Shown here piece after piece: positions 29,241-41,007 of a stretch of DNA of 64,000 nt. This DNA is from Pseudofrankia coriaricola (lineage in GTDB: Bacteria > Actinomycetota > Actinomycetes > Frankiales > Frankiaceae), in assembly GCF_001854805.1 (NCBI RefSeq), contig NZ_MBLO01000249.1:12564-76563 (forward strand), in the 5' to 3' direction. The notes under the pieces are model-generated. The model worked only from the letters and a program-made list of their open reading frames with translations, made no database searches and was not told the DNA's origin. Each line of letters opens with the position of its first letter. Position 1 is the first letter of the stretch. Both the position numbers and the translations under genes were made by a program.

Positions 29241-29594
29241 CTACGGGAAGCGGCGGGTCAGCGGCTCGCGCTGGTGGGCGGCGCGAGTGAAGAACCGGAG
29301 GGTGGCTGGCTTCGGCTCGGGCGTGGACCAGTGGGAGCTGACGACAGGCTGGACGGGCCGCGTGGCGCGGCGTGGCAGGCCCGAGACATCCGCCCAGGAG
29401 ACATTCAGGCTGCCGCACTGCGGGCAGCGCTGGCCCAGCATCGGCGGCGGCACCGGCACCCCCCGGCGGAAGTAGGTCTCCAGGAGGTCGCCCTCGTAGC
29501 CGGTCCACCGGACCACCTCGTAGCCCTGCCGCCACTCCAACTGGCAGTGACGGCACGTGAACAGCACCTCGACCGGTGTCCGCTCGACCTCCAT
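29241..29594 (-). CDS. Zinc-ribbon hypothetical protein
   Basis: A 117-residue protein with two CxxC pairs, CRHC (14-17) and CPQC (57-60), forming a probable zinc ribbon around a tryptophan/tyrosine-rich middle (WRQGYEVVRWTGYEGDLLETYF). The basic C-terminal third (PLPRRATRPVQP...REPLTRRFP) could touch nucleic acid. GGGAGG lies seven bases before the ATG. It is divergent from the dCTP-deaminase-like gene, 228 bases away. Family not recognised. Confidence 0.72.
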   Translation of the reverse strand: MEVERTPVEVLFTCRHCQLEWRQGYEVVRWTGYEGDLLETYFRRGVPVPPPMLGQRCPQCGSLNVSWADVSGLPRRATRPVQPVVSSHWSTPEPKPATLRFFTRAAHQREPLTRRFP

Positions 29595-29822
29595 GGCGAC
29601 CTCCCGCTCTCGCGGAGCCGGAGCACATCGGGGCGCCGGCCCCGAAGAGGAACTGCCCAGGGCCCTCACACCCAACCAGCGCCCCACACCCGGCCGTGGC
29701 GGCGACAGCGGACGGAGACACCTGGGAGTGGCTACCGGGCCGCGTTGCGACCGCGGCAGGGGCGCTGACAGGGTGGTGGGGGAGACGCCGTCCGGTGGGG
29801 ATGGCGAGCCGGCAAGGAGACC

Positions 29823-31694
29823 ATGGCGGACGACGAGGGCGGGTGCCGGATCGGGCTTGCCGAGCATCTGCGTACACCGGAGCTGGTGTTCGGGATCGTG
29901 CGGACCGTCGGCACGGAGACGGCGCCGGTGCTCCAGGAGCTGCACGCCGCGCTCGCGGCCGCGAACTACCTGGTCTTCCGGATCGACCTGGACGCCCTGC
30001 TCGCGCCGATGGAACCCGGCGACGACACCGGGCGGCCCGTCGCCGCGGGCGTCGCTCCCGGCGAGGCCGCGCGCGCGGAACCATCCGCGCCGGCGGCGCC
30101 GCCCGCGATGAGGGAACCGTCGGCGGCCAGAGGGCCCGCCGGGACGGCCGAGCCGCACGGCCCGGCGGAGTCGCCCGGAGCGGCGAAGCCAGCGGGACCA
30201 GCGGGACTGGCCGGCCGGCCGGGGCCGGTGGACCTGCCGGCGGACGAGCCGACGCGGCGCGAGCTGCTGATGGACGCGGGCGACCAGCTGCGGGCGCGGC
30301 TGGGCCGGGCCGACGCGGTCGCACTCGTCGGGGTGCGCGAGATCCACGAGATCCGCGGCGGCGACGGCATCGACCACATCCGCCCCCGCGCGTTCGTCCT
30401 GGACAGCCTGACCCACAAGGCCGAGGTGGAGACGCTGCGCCAGGTCTACGGCCGGCGCGCCTTCTTCATCGCCTGCGACGCGCCGCGCCCGGAGCGGGCC
30501 AGGATGCTCGCGCAGCTGTTCGAGCGCAGCGCCGGGCTCGCCGCGACCGACGCCGAGCGGGCCGCGACCCATGCCGTCGACCGCGACTTCGGCCTGGCGA
30601 CCAGCCTCACCTCACCCCCGGTCCCGCGCGGGCTGCGGCTGTCGTCGTCGGCGGCGCTGGAGCGCTGCGACCTGTTCGTCCGCTGCGACGACCCGACGCA
30701 GACCCGCCGGCACGTGCGCCGCCTGGTCGAGTGCATCCACAGCCACCCGTTCCATACGCTGACGATGGACGAGCTGGGCATGGCCGCCGCCTACCGCGGC
30801 TCGCTCACTACGGCGGTGCTGGCCCGCCGCGTCGGCACAGCGATCATGGTGGACGAGCAGATCGTCGCGGTCGGCGCGAACGAGGTGCCGAAGGCTGGCG
30901 GCGGCTACTACCACACCGAGAGCCAGCCGGACGGGCGCGAGTTCATGGCCGGCCTGGACGCCTCCGACGGCATCCGGGCGCAGATCCTCGCCGACCTGCT
31001 CGCCCGGCTGCGCGCCGGCTGGTTCACCCCGGAGCTGCGCCGGCGCACCGTCGCCGAGCTCACCGAGCTCGCCATCAACGACGAGAACATCCGCGACGCG
31101 GACCTGTTCGACGTCATCGAGTACGGCCGCACCACCCACGCCGAGATGGTGGCGATCACCTCCGCCGCCCGCCGCGGCATCTCGATCGAGGGCGGCACCC
31201 TCTACAGCACGACGCTGCCCTGCCACGAGTGCACCCGCAACATCATCGCCTCGGGCCTGGCCAGGGTCGTCTACCTGGAGCCGTACCACAAGAGCAAGGG
31301 CGGCGAGCTGCACCGCGACGCGATCGACCTGTTCCCCGAGCCGATGGCGCGTACCGACCGGGTGTCGTTCGAGCCGTTCTCCGGCTTCTCCCACCACCGC
31401 CTGTCGGACCTGTTCTCCTGGGTGCCGCGCAAGGCCGACGACGTGCGGCGCGCCAGCGGCGAGCGGATCCGCCTCGACGGCCGCGCCGTGATCTGGCGCG
31501 CCCACGAGGCGGCGCTGCGCCCCAGTATCAGCGACCCGGCGTTCGCCGAGACCGACGGCCTGACCCGCCTCGTCACCGAGATGCGGGTCCTCGCCGCCCT
31601 CCCGGGCCCCCGCCCCCGCTCCGCCTGCACCCCCCTCAAGGACCTGGAAGCCCTCCTCGACACCATCGCCACCACCCTCGACAACGGCACGTGA
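29823..31694 (+). CDS. Anti-phage dCTP deaminase-like protein (P-loop-like domain + deaminase)
   Basis: A 623-residue protein with the two-part architecture of the anti-phage dCTP deaminases (AvcD-type). The first part (about 1-62 and 141-310) begins PELVFGIVRTVGTE, the degenerate nucleotide-binding motif of these proteins, with an Ala/Pro/Gly-rich insertion (about 65-140) splitting it. The deaminase part (about 318-520) has the zinc motif THAEM with His439 and Glu441, and PCHEC with Cys467 and Cys470, all intact. Known members convert dCTP to dUTP on infection and starve phage replication; a toxin-antitoxin-like RNA controls some. No such RNA was identified here. Ordinary deoxycytidylate deaminase is less likely because of the size and N-terminal domain. 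Confidence 0.82.
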   Translation: MADDEGGCRIGLAEHLRTPELVFGIVRTVGTETAPVLQELHAALAAANYLVFRIDLDALLAPMEPGDDTGRPVAAGVAPGEAARAEPSAPAAPPAMREPSAARGPAGTAEPHGPAESPGAAKPAGPAGLAGRPGPVDLPADEPTRRELLMDAGDQLRARLGRADAVALVGVREIHEIRGGDGIDHIRPRAFVLDSLTHKAEVETLRQVYGRRAFFIACDAPRPERARMLAQLFERSAGLAATDAERAATHAVDRDFGLATSLTSPPVPRGLRLSSSAALERCDLFVRCDDPTQTRRHVRRLVECIHSHPFHTLTMDELGMAAAYRGSLTTAVLARRVGTAIMVDEQIVAVGANEVPKAGGGYYHTESQPDGREFMAGLDASDGIRAQILADLLARLRAGWFTPELRRRTVAELTELAINDENIRDADLFDVIEYGRTTHAEMVAITSAARRGISIEGGTLYSTTLPCHECTRNIIASGLARVVYLEPYHKSKGGELHRDAIDLFPEPMARTDRVSFEPFSGFSHHRLSDLFSWVPRKADDVRRASGERIRLDGRAVIWRAHEAALRPSISDPAFAETDGLTRLVTEMRVLAALPGPRPRSACTPLKDLEALLDTIATTLDNGT

Positions 31695-31728: not shown

Positions 31729-34065
31729 TTATGCGATGCGGCTGGCGGGGAACCAGTTCCCCGAGGCGTCGCGGAACATCTGGTGGAGGCGGTCGCCGAC
31801 GCGGGCGACGACCTCCAGGTGGCCCTGGAAGGTGCTCTGGATCATCGTCACCGCGTCGACACGGCCGAGGTTCGTCGCGAACGGGCGCGGGCCGCTCCAC
31901 GGGGTGGCGAAGGCGCTGTTGTTCCGCCAGTAGTGGATCAGCCCGCTGTTCGCGCCCGGCACGACGACCTCGAAGTTGCGTGACGACCCGAACACGCTCT
32001 CGATCATCACCGGGTTGCCGGCTACGCCGTCGGCGAAGGCGACCGTGATGTGCCAGGCGGCCGCGGAGGTCTGGTCGCGCCAGATGTGGAGCAGCCGGCT
32101 GCCAACCCGCACGACCGCCTCCAGGCTGCCGACGCCGCCGCCCCGGCTGCCCTGGATGAGGCTGACGGCGTCGGCGTGACCGAGTTCCGGCAGGACCTGG
32201 CGCGGGTTGCTCCAGGGGAAGCCGAAGACGTCGTGGTTGCGCCACATGTGCATCAGGCCGACGCCGGTCGACGGGAAGAGCATCTCGAAGTTGCCCCGGG
32301 AGCCGTAGCGGCTCTGCACCAGCGAGTGCGTGCCGGCGGCGCCGGTGGCGATCCGGGCGGGCTTCGACCAGACGAACGTGCCGGTGCTGTCCCGCCACAG
32401 GAAGTGCAGGTCGGCACCGACCCGCACGACGGTCTCCAGCGGCCCCGGTGCCTGCAGGGTGCTCTGGACCATCGACACCGCGTCGAGGCGGCCGAGCACC
32501 TGCGCGGTCTGGAACGGGTCCTCCCAGGGGAAGCCCGGCTGGTCGAAGTTCTCCCACCGGTGGGTGAGGCCCGAGAACGACGAGGCGGAGAGCAGCTCGA
32601 AGTTGCCGAGTTGCCCCAGGCCCCTGGCCTGGATGAGGAGCGGGTTGCCGGTGGCGCCCCGGCCCCAGCCGACGTGCGCCGGGGTGTACCGGCAGAAGTT
32701 GAACGTGTTGCCGCGCATCAGGCAGTCGACCGGGGCGGCGGCGCAGGCGTCGCAGTTGCCGTTGACGACCCCGAACCGGCCCCATGCCCCGCCGCAGTCG
32801 CAGCCCGACGAGGCGTACTCGTCGACCGCGCCGAAGATGTGGCACGACTCGTGGGCGACCACCCGGTCGAGGTTGTCCGGGCCCCAGCCGTCGTTGTCAT
32901 ACGTCAGCACCAGCCGCGGCCCGCCGATGGCCGCGTAGGCGAAGTAGCGCACCGGGTACTTGGTGACGAACATGACGTAGCCCCAGCGGGTGCCGAGCTG
33001 GCCGCGGACCTCGTCGGCGTAGTCGTAGACGCCGTCGAAGTTCGCCTGGTAGCCGAGCTTGGCCATCGTCGGGTCGCGCCAGTAGGCCTCCAGGTCGTCC
33101 TGGGACGGGTCGGCGGCCTGGCCGAGCCGGACGATCTGGATGTCGTAGCTGAACGTGACGTCGGCGGCCGGGTTGGCGGCCGCGAGCCAGGACAGGCCGT
33201 TCTGCGCCTCGGCGACGACCTTCGTCCGCTCGGCCGCGGTGAACTGCAGATCGGCGGTGGGCCCCTCGACGAGGACCAGGCCGACGGCGACGCTGCCCTC
33301 CAGGTAGGAGCTCAGGGGCGCGGCGCCCACCTCGCCAGCGGTGGAGGTGCCGTCGGGGGCGATCGTGGCGCCGGCGGAGCGGGACGCGACCTCCGCGGCC
33401 ACGGCCGCGGCGTGCACCTGCATGGGCGCGACGTGCGCCGGCAGGTCCGCGACGGCCAGGGCACTCGGCCCCGGGGCGTCCGCGGTGTCTTCGCCCGCGC
33501 CGCCCGCGTCGCCCGTGGGCGTGGCCGGTGGGCGGACGCGCGCGGCTGCCCCCCGGGGAGGCGCGATGTCGGTGCAGGCGTACTCCATGTCCCACAGCTG
33601 CCCGTCACGCGGGCGCTCCTGCTTGCCTCGCCGGTAGGCGGCGCTCGCGCGCAGCCGGAACGCCTCAAGGCCGAGGGTCTCGGTCCGGTCCAGCCCGGCG
33701 GCGAGGCCCGTCGTCGCGACGACCGACCCGTCGGTCGAGCCGAGGGCGGCACGGTCGTGGTCGTCCGTCGTGGCCGCGGCCCGCGGTGTCGCCCGCTCCG
33801 CGACCGCCGGCTGCCCGCCGGCGCCAGGAACGCCGAACGCGCCGAGGACCTGGACCCGCCCGTAGCGGTGCAGGACGCGTTCCCCGGCGGCGACGGCGGC
33901 GGCGGCCGCTGGGTCCGCGCCCGTGGGCTCGGCGGCGGAGCCGATGGCCGGCGTGGCCGGCTGATCGTCAGGTGCCACCCGCAGGCCGGCTCCGCCCACC
34001 CCAGAAGACCCGGTGGCGCCGGGCGCGATCAACACCCGCTCGTCGGCCGGAACATCCCCCGCCAT
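31729..34065 (-). CDS. Metzincin-like zinc metalloprotease with C-terminal 105-residue repeats
   Basis: A 778-residue protein not recognised as a named family. Residues 1-250 are Ala/Pro-rich and probably disordered, without a clear signal peptide. The middle (about 255-472) holds HESCHIFGAVD: His405, Glu406, His409, Gly412 and Asp415 fit the metzincin zinc motif HExxHxxGxx(H/D), followed about 35 residues later by CLM, a candidate Met-turn, inside a Cys-rich patch. From 474 to the end three repeats start at 474, 579 and 684 (period 105), each made of two halves such as NFE...GL-H-WRN and LE-VVRVG-L-H-WRD, suggesting a six-bladed beta-propeller. It may be a secreted or defence-related protease; the role is unknown. 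Confidence 0.7.
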   Translation of the reverse strand: MAGDVPADERVLIAPGATGSSGVGGAGLRVAPDDQPATPAIGSAAEPTGADPAAAAAVAAGERVLHRYGRVQVLGAFGVPGAGGQPAVAERATPRAAATTDDHDRAALGSTDGSVVATTGLAAGLDRTETLGLEAFRLRASAAYRRGKQERPRDGQLWDMEYACTDIAPPRGAAARVRPPATPTGDAGGAGEDTADAPGPSALAVADLPAHVAPMQVHAAAVAAEVASRSAGATIAPDGTSTAGEVGAAPLSSYLEGSVAVGLVLVEGPTADLQFTAAERTKVVAEAQNGLSWLAAANPAADVTFSYDIQIVRLGQAADPSQDDLEAYWRDPTMAKLGYQANFDGVYDYADEVRGQLGTRWGYVMFVTKYPVRYFAYAAIGGPRLVLTYDNDGWGPDNLDRVVAHESCHIFGAVDEYASSGCDCGGAWGRFGVVNGNCDACAAAPVDCLMRGNTFNFCRYTPAHVGWGRGATGNPLLIQARGLGQLGNFELLSASSFSGLTHRWENFDQPGFPWEDPFQTAQVLGRLDAVSMVQSTLQAPGPLETVVRVGADLHFLWRDSTGTFVWSKPARIATGAAGTHSLVQSRYGSRGNFEMLFPSTGVGLMHMWRNHDVFGFPWSNPRQVLPELGHADAVSLIQGSRGGGVGSLEAVVRVGSRLLHIWRDQTSAAAWHITVAFADGVAGNPVMIESVFGSSRNFEVVVPGANSGLIHYWRNNSAFATPWSGPRPFATNLGRVDAVTMIQSTFQGHLEVVARVGDRLHQMFRDASGNWFPASRIA

Positions 34066-38913: not shown

Positions 38914-39774
38914 CTAGGTGAGCAGAGCGGGGGCCAGACGGCGCCATTCGTCGCGGGGGAGGGTGTTGTCGGCGGTGAGGACCTGGACGCAGACGTGGTC
39001 GGCGCCGGCGGCGCGGTGGTCGGCGACCCGCTGGGCGATCGCGGCCTCGTCGCCGATGACGATCGTGGCGTCGACGAGGCGGTCGGTGACGGAGAACAGG
39101 TCGTCATCGGTGAACCCGAGCCGGCGCAGGTTGTTCGCGTAGTTCGGCAGCTGCAGGTAGCCGGTCAGGAACGGCCGGGCGATCTCCAGGCCGGCGACCC
39201 GGTCGTCGGTCAGGACGACAGTCTGTTCCGGCGCCAGCAGCGGCCCGGCTCCCAGCGCCTCGCGCGCGATCGCCGTGTGCTCCGGGCTGACCAGATACGG
39301 GTGCGCGCCGCGGGCCCGGGTACGGGCGAGCTCGAGCATCTTCGGGCCGAGGGCGGCGAGCACCCGGTCGGCGACCGGCACCGGCGGGGTGGCGGCGTCG
39401 ATGGCGTCGAGGAAGGCCGTCGTCGCGCGCAGCGGCGCCTGGTAGCGGCCGGGCTCCTTCTGGTCGACGAGCGGCGCGTGGCTCACGCCGATCCCGAGCA
39501 GCAGCCGGCCGCCGAACTTGTCGGCGAGCGCGGCCCGCGAGGCGGCGACGTCGGCAGGCTCGTGCATCCAGAGGTTGAGGATCCCGGTGGCGACGACGGC
39601 GCGGTGCGTCGCCCCGAGCAGGTTCTCCAGCGCGTCGAACACCGGCCCACCCGCGTCCGGGATCCAGATCGCCTGGTAGCCGAGCTCGTCGATCTCGGCC
39701 GCGGCCTCGGCGGCCGGGCCCGGGGCGCCATAGCGCAGCTGGGAGTTCCAGATGCCGACTCCGCCAAGATCCAT
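38914..39774 (-). CDS. LLM class F420-dependent oxidoreductase
   Basis: A 286-residue TIM-barrel enzyme of the luciferase-like monooxygenase superfamily, in the F420-using branch common in actinobacteria. Typical stretches are AAAEIDELGYQAIWIPDAGG, ATGILNLWMHEPADVAASRAAL, GGRLLLGIGVSHAPLV and the C-terminal AGADHVCVQVL. ATG at 39774 has GAGGAGG ten bases upstream. The substrate is unknown. It is divergent from an alpha/beta hydrolase gene across a region of nested palindromes. Confidence 0.88.
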   Translation of the reverse strand: MDLGGVGIWNSQLRYGAPGPAAEAAAEIDELGYQAIWIPDAGGPVFDALENLLGATHRAVVATGILNLWMHEPADVAASRAALADKFGGRLLLGIGVSHAPLVDQKEPGRYQAPLRATTAFLDAIDAATPPVPVADRVLAALGPKMLELARTRARGAHPYLVSPEHTAIAREALGAGPLLAPEQTVVLTDDRVAGLEIARPFLTGYLQLPNYANNLRRLGFTDDDLFSVTDRLVDATIVIGDEAAIAQRVADHRAAGADHVCVQVLTADNTLPRDEWRRLAPALLT

Positions 39775-39990: not shown

Positions 39991-41007
39991 GTGAGCGTCC
40001 AGCAGCATGGCCGAAGGTCGCGCGACGATGGCGAAGCCTCGCGCGACCGGAGGCTTCTGGCAAAGGCGAGCAGTTTCGAGGTGGCCGGGCTGCGGCTCGC
40101 GGGGGACCGGTGGGACCCGCCGGCGGGTGACAGCCACGGGGTCGTGCTGCTGATGCACGGCGGTGGGCAGACCCGCCACTCGTGGCGGCGCACCGGCGAG
40201 CGGATGGCCGAGCTCGGCTGGACCGCCATCGCGCTGGACGCCCGCGGCCACGGCGACAGCGACTGGGATCCGGAGCAGGACTACAGCCACGTCGCCATGG
40301 CCGACGACCTGGGCGAGATCGTGCGCCAGCTCGGCGAGCCGCCCATCCTCGTCGGCGCGTCGATGGGCGGGATCACCGCCCTCGTCGCGCAGGCGCGCGA
40401 CCCGGGGCTCGGCCGGGCGCTGGTCCTCGTCGACATCACCCCGCGCATCGAGCCGGCGGGCATCAAACACATCTTCGAGTTCATGACGTCGGCGCCGAAC
40501 GGGTTCGCGGACCTGGAGGAGGCCGCCGAGGCGATCGCCGCCTACAACCCGAACCGCAAGCGGCCGCCGAGCCAGGAGGGCCTGAAGAAGAACCTGCGGC
40601 TGCGCGACGGCCGCTGGCACTGGCACTGGGACCCGGCGTTCATGAAGATCCGCGAGGAGGCCCGCCGCGAGCTCGGCCACGACGTCCTCGAGGCCGACGG
40701 CCCCGGCGCTTCCGGGGGCGCCGACGTGGCCTCGGAGGATTTCCTCGCCGAGGCGGAGCGGGCGATCCAGAGCGACCGGCTGCGCGACGCGGCCCGCTCG
40801 ATCCGTGTCCCGGTCCTGCTGGTGCGCGGCAAGCAGTCCGACATCGTCAGCGAGGAGGGCGCCGCCGAGCTGCTGGCGCTCATCCCGCACGCCGAGTATG
40901 TCGACGTCACCGGCGCCGGCCACATGGTCGCCGGGGACGACAACGACGTCTTCGCCGGCCGTCTCGGCGACTTCCTCGCGCGTCTTCCCGCGCTGCCGCC
41001 GCGCTGA
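39991..41007 (+). CDS. Alpha/beta hydrolase (esterase/lipase-like)
   Basis: A 338-residue alpha/beta hydrolase. The oxyanion region is LLMHGGGQTRHSW, the nucleophile elbow GASMGG, the acid region VRGKQSDIVSEEGA, and the catalytic His in VTGAGHMVAGDDN. The cap contains KRPPSQEGLKKNLRLRDGRW, typical of a common actinobacterial subgroup annotated as peroxidase/hydrolase-like. GTG at 39991 has AAAGGGG upstream. The first 25 residues (QQHGRRSRDDGEASRDRRL) are encoded by a family B repeat, so they are probably a recent non-functional addition, or the real start may be a GTG near 40081. Confidence 0.82.
   Translation: MSVQQHGRRSRDDGEASRDRRLLAKASSFEVAGLRLAGDRWDPPAGDSHGVVLLMHGGGQTRHSWRRTGERMAELGWTAIALDARGHGDSDWDPEQDYSHVAMADDLGEIVRQLGEPPILVGASMGGITALVAQARDPGLGRALVLVDITPRIEPAGIKHIFEFMTSAPNGFADLEEAAEAIAAYNPNRKRPPSQEGLKKNLRLRDGRWHWHWDPAFMKIREEARRELGHDVLEADGPGASGGADVASEDFLAEAERAIQSDRLRDAARSIRVPVLLVRGKQSDIVSEEGAAELLALIPHAEYVDVTGAGHMVAGDDNDVFAGRLGDFLARLPALPPR
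40009..40060 (+). repeat. Dispersed repeat, family B, copy 1
   Basis: Reads GGCCGAAGGTCGCGCGACG then ATGGCGAAGCCTCGCGCG then ACCGGAGGCTTCTGG. GCGCGAC/TCGCGCG and the outer GAAGG/CCGGAGGCTTC halves form an imperfect palindrome. It overlaps the 5' end of the hydrolase gene. Confidence 0.75.

Follow-up and report, generated by a model that had tools for sequence, protein, structure and literature searches.

The window, that is, the whole 64,000-nucleotide stretch of DNA analysed here, comes from the soil actinobacterium Pseudofrankia coriaricola. At 29823-31694 on the + strand it holds an open reading frame of 623 amino acids, correctly positioned by an earlier reading made from the letters alone (the sequence-only reading), which took the product for a relative of the anti-phage dCTP deaminases. 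That family comprises enzymes with which bacteria break down a building block of DNA as a defence against viruses. The features of the locus are as follows:

29241-29594, - strand: gene w20, encoding a C4 zinc-ribbon protein of 117 aa; the divergent neighbour of the deaminase, a candidate partner or a mere neighbour
29595-29822, no strand: divergent intergenic region of 228 bp, containing CGCTGACAGGGTG at 29763-29775
29823-31694, + strand: deaminase-family gene, 623 aa, of the two-domain (d)CTP/(d)CMP deaminase type according to its ORF and profile matches
29871-30008, + strand: first part of the N-terminal P-loop-kinase-like domain (residues 17-62), with the degenerate loop FGIVRTVGTE and Arg27
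30009-30233, + strand: Ala/Pro/Gly-rich disordered linker (residues ~63-137; pLDDT <50)
30249-30740, + strand: remainder of the N-terminal domain (residues 143-306), with the basic residue 197 changed to Thr and Gln269 to Arg
30741-31457, + strand: zinc deaminase domain (residues 307-545), with H439-A-E441, P-C467-H-x-C470 and YxEPYxKS
31458-31694, + strand: C-terminal extension (residues 546-623), then the stop codon; modelled as helical with lower confidence

The ATG of the deaminase gene is preceded by AAGGAG, with a gap of three bases between them. Two other long frames compete for the same DNA (785 aa in another + frame and 443 aa on the - strand), and among the overlapping frames the 623-aa frame is the one that has both profile matches and a low dN/dS (0.07-0.26; seven pairs within the genus). 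Since this frame is kept in all eight genomes of the genus with dN/dS well below 1, we exclude that it arose by chance in GC-rich sequence. The general zinc-deaminase family PF00383 matches seven places in the same genome, the deaminase gene included.

The zinc site described in the sequence-only reading is intact: His439, Glu441, Cys467 and Cys470 are invariant in 51/51 aligned rows (L094, L102 and L107, fragments or non-family loci, were dropped before this alignment), and the PCHxC, YxEPYxKS and GxNEVPK motifs are retained. In an AlphaFold2 model built on 27 sequences (mean pLDDT 74.6; pTM 0.75), the deaminase domain superimposes on the dCMP deaminase of S. mutans (2hvv; Z 18.6, 143 residues, 2.2 Å). 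The front domain (residues 21-306) superimposes on 3lw7, an adenylate-kinase-related protein of Sulfolobus (Z 15.4, 165 residues of 170, 2.4 Å, 18% identity), and 3h0k belongs to the same group. A sequence profile search of the PDB returned the same two groups, adenylate-kinase-related proteins and dCMP deaminases; since model and profile search agree, we assign to the front part a P-loop-kinase-like fold whose loop is degenerate. The degenerate nucleotide-binding start that had been read from PELVFGIVRTVGTE (residues 19-32) is thus borne out, and structure prediction, which the sequence-only reading had proposed as a check, does yield the N-terminal P-loop-like domain. Two sequence searches, one of them the profile search of the PDB, turned up no solved structure for any two-domain relative.

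The sequence-only reading had also drawn attention to an insertion of about 75 Ala/Pro/Gly-rich residues in the first domain. The insertion is present (about residues 63-137), but it is not a notable feature, being disordered and missing in 5/8 genus genomes; pLDDT is below 50 at residues 63-98, 100-104 and 106-137. Measured in the alignment over residues 58-160, the segment runs to 103 residues here, against 79 in G004 and 56 in G001; the remaining five genus genomes have 30-39, 40 main-family relatives outside the genus 32-44 and three outgroup rows 36-39. The linker is therefore expanded in three of the eight genus genomes, each to a different length, and that of G004 carries a DRDSA-type repeat. 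The insertion is a lineage-limited, low-complexity linker expansion; a functional domain is rejected, as the segment is disordered, variable in length and absent from five genus genomes and the other aligned relatives. The rest of the protein is well kept. Identity in six genus pairs is 92-99% in the catalytic domain (dN far below dS), 84-99% over residues 143-306, which are less conserved than the catalytic domain, and 76-99% in the C-terminal extension; residues 17-62, short but highly conserved, are 93-100% identical in genus pairs.

Kinship to the anti-phage enzymes, as the sequence-only reading had it, proved broadly right. The PADLOC profile dCTPase PDLC02373 matches residues 14-543 (377.5 bits, 3.8e-113; profile positions 148-527 of 630), spanning both domains, the feature by which a broad anti-phage dCTP deaminase is recognised, and it gives 374 and 384 bits on two relatives from the genus. 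The matches are thus not confined to ordinary dCMP deaminases, the outcome that the sequence-only reading had named as fatal to its claim. The NCBIfam equivalog NF041025 (antiphage_deaminase) also matches (1.2e-85), at 288 bits under a curated cut-off of 400, and the other genus genomes fall short of it as well (283-301 bits over all eight), which marks the deaminase as a divergent branch. In a scan of eight relatives with this model, five score above the cut-off (440-488 bits: an E. coli, a Photobacterium and an Azospirillum plasmid, viral contig L072 and phage scaffold L071) and three below it (Rhodococcus plasmid 364, G070 344, G210 locus L064 211). The ComEB/DCTD dCMP deaminase model TIGR02571 gives 49.9 bits against a curated cut-off of 219, and the protein has no match to TIGR02274, the model of Dcd, the dCTP deaminase of the dUTPase superfamily. 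We conclude that the deaminase truly belongs to a known family of defence enzymes, as a divergent variant.

For the comparison of conserved columns, redundancy above 90% identity was removed, which reduced 40 rows to 32, and two were added, giving 34 non-redundant relatives with the outgroup L063-L065 left out. Of 63 columns conserved among these relatives, 11 differ in the genus (10 in G004), and three of its changes (Gln269Arg, Pro313Leu and Pro524His) fall at columns invariant in 34/34 relatives. Residue 197 is K or R in all 34 relatives and T or S in 8/8 genus genomes; residue 269 is Q in the former and R in the latter. A basic residue 197 together with Gln269 is a pattern drawn from the relatives aligned here and not a published criterion. 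Within the deaminase domain, Gln336Arg, Ala339Thr, His473Asn and Pro524His lie at family-conserved columns. Among the relatives the median is one departure, but G437 departs at 11/66 and G457 at 9/66 conserved columns, nearly as often as the genus, and we have therefore softened the view of the genus as a single outlier. With G437 and G457 removed from the comparison, the genus departs at 11-12 of 68 columns against a maximum of 9 in the others. Arg27 in the P-loop occurs in 8/8 genus genomes and in one of the 34 relatives, G437, two of the 34 being gapped there; it is consequently not unique to the genus. The genus clade has support of 100/100 on a stem of 2.2-2.8 changes per column, and the trees gave no resolved placement for its sister.

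Each of the eight genus genomes (Pseudofrankia-like) carries one full-length copy, second matches in four of them being short and weak; the genus matches include Pseudofrankia asymbiotica, Frankia nepalensis, Frankia sp. AgB1.9 and a Frankia MAG. At E 1e-30, none of 27 other genomes of the taxonomic family, several of them less than 90% complete, has a match to the deaminase. A draw from the phylum gave matches at 1e-30 in 4/395 other genomes, three of which form a distinct outgroup without PCHxC and KS, and a draw from the class gave 2/385 outside the genus; the genus of G070 is represented by a single genome. Beyond these, the family turns up on 62 plasmid records (cover of at least 80% in 47), several annotated as anti-phage dCTP deaminase, and in 36 IMG/VR loci, among which L107 matches in the zinc-site stretch only.

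Within the genus the gene's tree follows that of its neighbours. Nucleotide trees of the deaminase and of w28 (38914-39774) plus w29 (40081-41007) have all splits with bootstrap of at least 90 in common, and one conflict pits 86 against 57. Synteny with the sister genera, sought through w28, was uninformative since w28 belongs to a large paralogous family. Against the window's genome, the deaminase has a dN/dS of 0.19-0.26 (0.07 for the G002-G005 pair), compared with 0.24-0.38 for w28, 0.21-0.60 for w29 and 0.25-0.67 for w20; some other neighbours, w23 and w25 among them, which could be compared in three pairs only, are as low as the deaminase or lower. The tree agreement, the dN/dS values and the identity of the catalytic domain together indicate that the deaminase is subject to purifying selection and behaves like an ordinary core gene whose catalytic part is under selection. 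A canonical Dcd gene, separate from the deaminase, is present in 8/8 genus genomes, ruling out the deaminase as a replacement for a missing Dcd; its dN/dS is lower still (0.04-0.11, leaving out the G002 row, where a wrong sequence of 30% identity was extracted). Alongside the proper Dcd gene, a second, weaker TIGR02274 match (about 68-158 of the profile) occurs in all eight genomes (L025 and seven relatives), which we guess to be a dUTPase.

For this gene, the surroundings do not bear out the accessory-looking stretch of the sequence-only reading: the deaminase is present in all eight genus genomes, and a PADLOC scan of ten window neighbours gave no match. Six flanking proteins in other genus genomes are of metabolic or regulatory types in Pfam or are unmatched. 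When neighbourhoods were compared over about 10 kb on each side (less in G007; gene calls from a GC3-based script, with some starts approximate), the outer neighbours differed, with one arrangement in G000, G001 and G004 and others in G002, G003, G005, G006 and G007.

The constant neighbour is w20, which adjoins the deaminase divergently in 8/8 genus genomes. Its Cys14, Cys17, Cys57 and Cys60 are invariant in 14/14 aligned rows and its C-terminal ...FP is conserved, in a protein whose sequence otherwise changes quickly (54-84% identical to the copy in the window) and which has no Pfam family above cut-off. Homologues of w20 occur in 6/6 genomes of another genus (g6) where the deaminase is absent, and in 5/6 of these they adjoin an enoyl-CoA-hydratase-like gene. 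On the Rhodococcus plasmid, a small divergent gene lies upstream of the deaminase relative (L069 5229-5573, - strand), with no similarity to w20. We rejected w20 as a family-wide partner, and since the g6 homologues lack a deaminase and the Rhodococcus neighbour is dissimilar, the link between w20 and the deaminase is known from this genus only. The pairing may be functional, or it may be a neighbourhood that was merely inherited.

On the other side, at 31729-33978 on the - strand, lies a metalloprotease-like gene with an HExxH-type motif (by eye) followed by repeated units. Its product has only sub-threshold reprolysin matches (E 0.05-0.2) and no PDB match. The sequence-only reading was right that it adjoins the deaminase here, but the two are adjacent in 3/8 genus genomes, whereas the deaminase is in all eight. 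Among actinobacterial relatives outside the genus, that of G070 adjoins a type I restriction-modification set (L062 1702-7459) and that of G457 a type IIG enzyme and a defence-type helicase (L142 2489-8976); for that of G437, one of two neighbours scanned gave a weak match (9e-5) and the other none, with no evident defence island. The closest viral-contig relative (L072 2949-4866) is followed by DprA-like and phosphoribosyltransferase-like genes, names judged from sequence.

An RNA inhibitor at 29595-29822, which the sequence-only reading had suggested looking for, did not emerge, though an AvcI-like RNA may still lie there: the 228-bp region has no Rfam match, and no fold is conserved over the eight genus regions. 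Neither conservation nor an Rfam entry is required of an AvcI. The window's own region folds better than its shuffles (z -2.4), the other seven give z between -1.2 and +0.9, and no 14-base word is common to four or more of the eight (the G003 stretch includes coding bases, its aligned ATG lying upstream of the start that was used). For scale, AvcI of Vibrio parahaemolyticus, which inhibits AvcD, needs at least about 171 bases to function according to PMC10511110. CGCTGACAGGGTG is exact in 4/8 genus intergenic regions and occurs once in the 11.2-Mb genome, which makes it locus-specific and sets aside the idea of a regulon. The GCTGACAGGGTGG element at this place has one copy here, and two in tandem in the relatives G001 and G004; the doubled elements lie at L028 8761-8786 and, on the - strand, at L026 10767-10792. 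This stretch may serve as a promoter or operator.

On balance, we think it probable that the gene encodes a zinc-dependent, two-domain deoxycytidine-nucleotide deaminase of the AvcD/dCTPase type, acquired once and fixed, with an altered sensor and with phage defence as its most likely use. An ancestor of the genus would have acquired the deaminase a single time, with vertical chromosomal inheritance since, one full-length copy per genome. Judging from the model, the kinase-like front domain probably senses or binds a nucleotide, and the domain of dCMP-deaminase fold would convert dCTP and/or dCMP to dUTP/dUMP. In healthy cells the enzyme would stay idle; a phage takeover would activate it and so cut off the dCTP supply for phage DNA synthesis. 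Because conserved front-domain residues are replaced and no AvcI-like RNA was seen, its trigger or its inhibitor is probably not the one at work in the enterobacterial and Vibrio enzymes. A bolder version, in which the rewired kinase-like domain and w20 have taken the place of the RNA antitoxin and the ancestral motifs, so that a genus-core defence deaminase and its neighbour would form a new two-gene module with changed control, strikes us as rather improbable.

The plasmid and IMG/VR relatives and the two actinobacterial relatives beside restriction systems speak for defence. Defence genes are usually patchy and mobile. Unlike most of them, the deaminase is fixed in its genus and has no known defence genes adjoining it as far as scanned; the NF041025 cut-off unmet in 8/8, the 11/63 changed columns, the lack of a detected AvcI-like RNA, the G437 relative with no evident island and the canonical Dcd in 8/8, by which dCTP deamination as such is already provided, also count against this use. 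The gene may instead have been domesticated, a former defence deaminase now adjusting dCTP relative to dUTP, for instance while hyphae grow slowly or spores form, under nucleotide control through its altered kinase-like domain. One vertically inherited copy in every genome, a dN/dS below those of w28 and w29 in all seven pairs, ten neighbours without a PADLOC gene and the altered front-domain residues would suit such a housekeeping role. It is nevertheless unlikely, if credible: with the canonical Dcd present in 8/8 and more conserved, a housekeeping need is not evident, and 27/27 other genomes of the taxonomic family do without a strong match.

The long stem branch and the four substitutions at family-conserved columns of the deaminase domain could instead reflect a change of substrate, the same fold now acting on another cytosine or purine compound (e.g., 5-methyl-dCTP, a ribonucleotide or a secondary metabolite) and no longer on dCTP. 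We regard this as highly doubtful, given that the zinc site, PCHxC, YxEPYxKS and GxNEVPK are all retained and that neighbours differing between genus genomes leave no conserved biosynthetic cluster within about 10 kb. It is extremely improbable that the protein is a plain dCMP deaminase to which an unrelated front extension was added: its best single-domain structural neighbours are indeed dCMP deaminases, but the ComEB score is a fraction of its cut-off (49.9 of 219 bits), both domains align to the two-domain family and the front domain itself has an adenylate-kinase-related fold. If the favoured reading, a fixed defence deaminase with an altered sensor, is right, the deaminase would be a good example of a dangerous nucleotide-destroying enzyme turning into a safe, permanent part of the cell, and the reach of dCTP-depletion defence would widen to a branch that scores too low for the curated NCBI model. 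The points worth testing are its genus-wide fixation and its altered front domain; the insertion is trivial.

Among the matches listed from the literature on Frankia and Pseudofrankia, none concerns the deaminase gene, and a human enzyme, CDADC1, is the subject of PMC12088426. The dCMP deaminases of S. mutans (2hvv), T4 (1vq2) and PBCV-1 (7fh4) have the same deaminase fold and zinc site, but their chains of 142-193 residues have no kinase-like part. Sulfolobus 3lw7 and 3h0k share the N-terminal fold, whereas the P-loop of the deaminase is degenerate, lacks the Walker lysine and is fused to a deaminase. The relative on the plasmid of Rhodococcus sp. USK13 (WP_213571406) and those of G070, G437 and G457 belong to the same family and are likewise below the NF041025 cut-off, but all four keep the basic residue 197 and Gln269, which the genus deaminase does not. 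Plasmid relatives annotated as anti-phage share its PCHxC and YxEPYxKS motifs.

The nearest characterised system is AvcID of Vibrio and E. coli, a type III toxin-antitoxin system with the RNA AvcI as antitoxin, encoded upstream. As described in PMC10511110 and PMC9455884, AvcD deaminates dCTP and dCMP, and it is held by an RNA and freed once host transcription is blocked. AvcD (PMC10511110) resembles the deaminase in two-domain layout, zinc site and PADLOC profile match, here over both domains with PDLC02373 while NF041025 stays under 400 bits; the deaminase is 28-31% identical to the plasmid-borne relatives aligned. It differs from AvcID in that its front-domain motifs are changed, no AvcI-like RNA was detected beside it, it is a core gene of its genus, and a zinc-ribbon gene stands divergently next to it.
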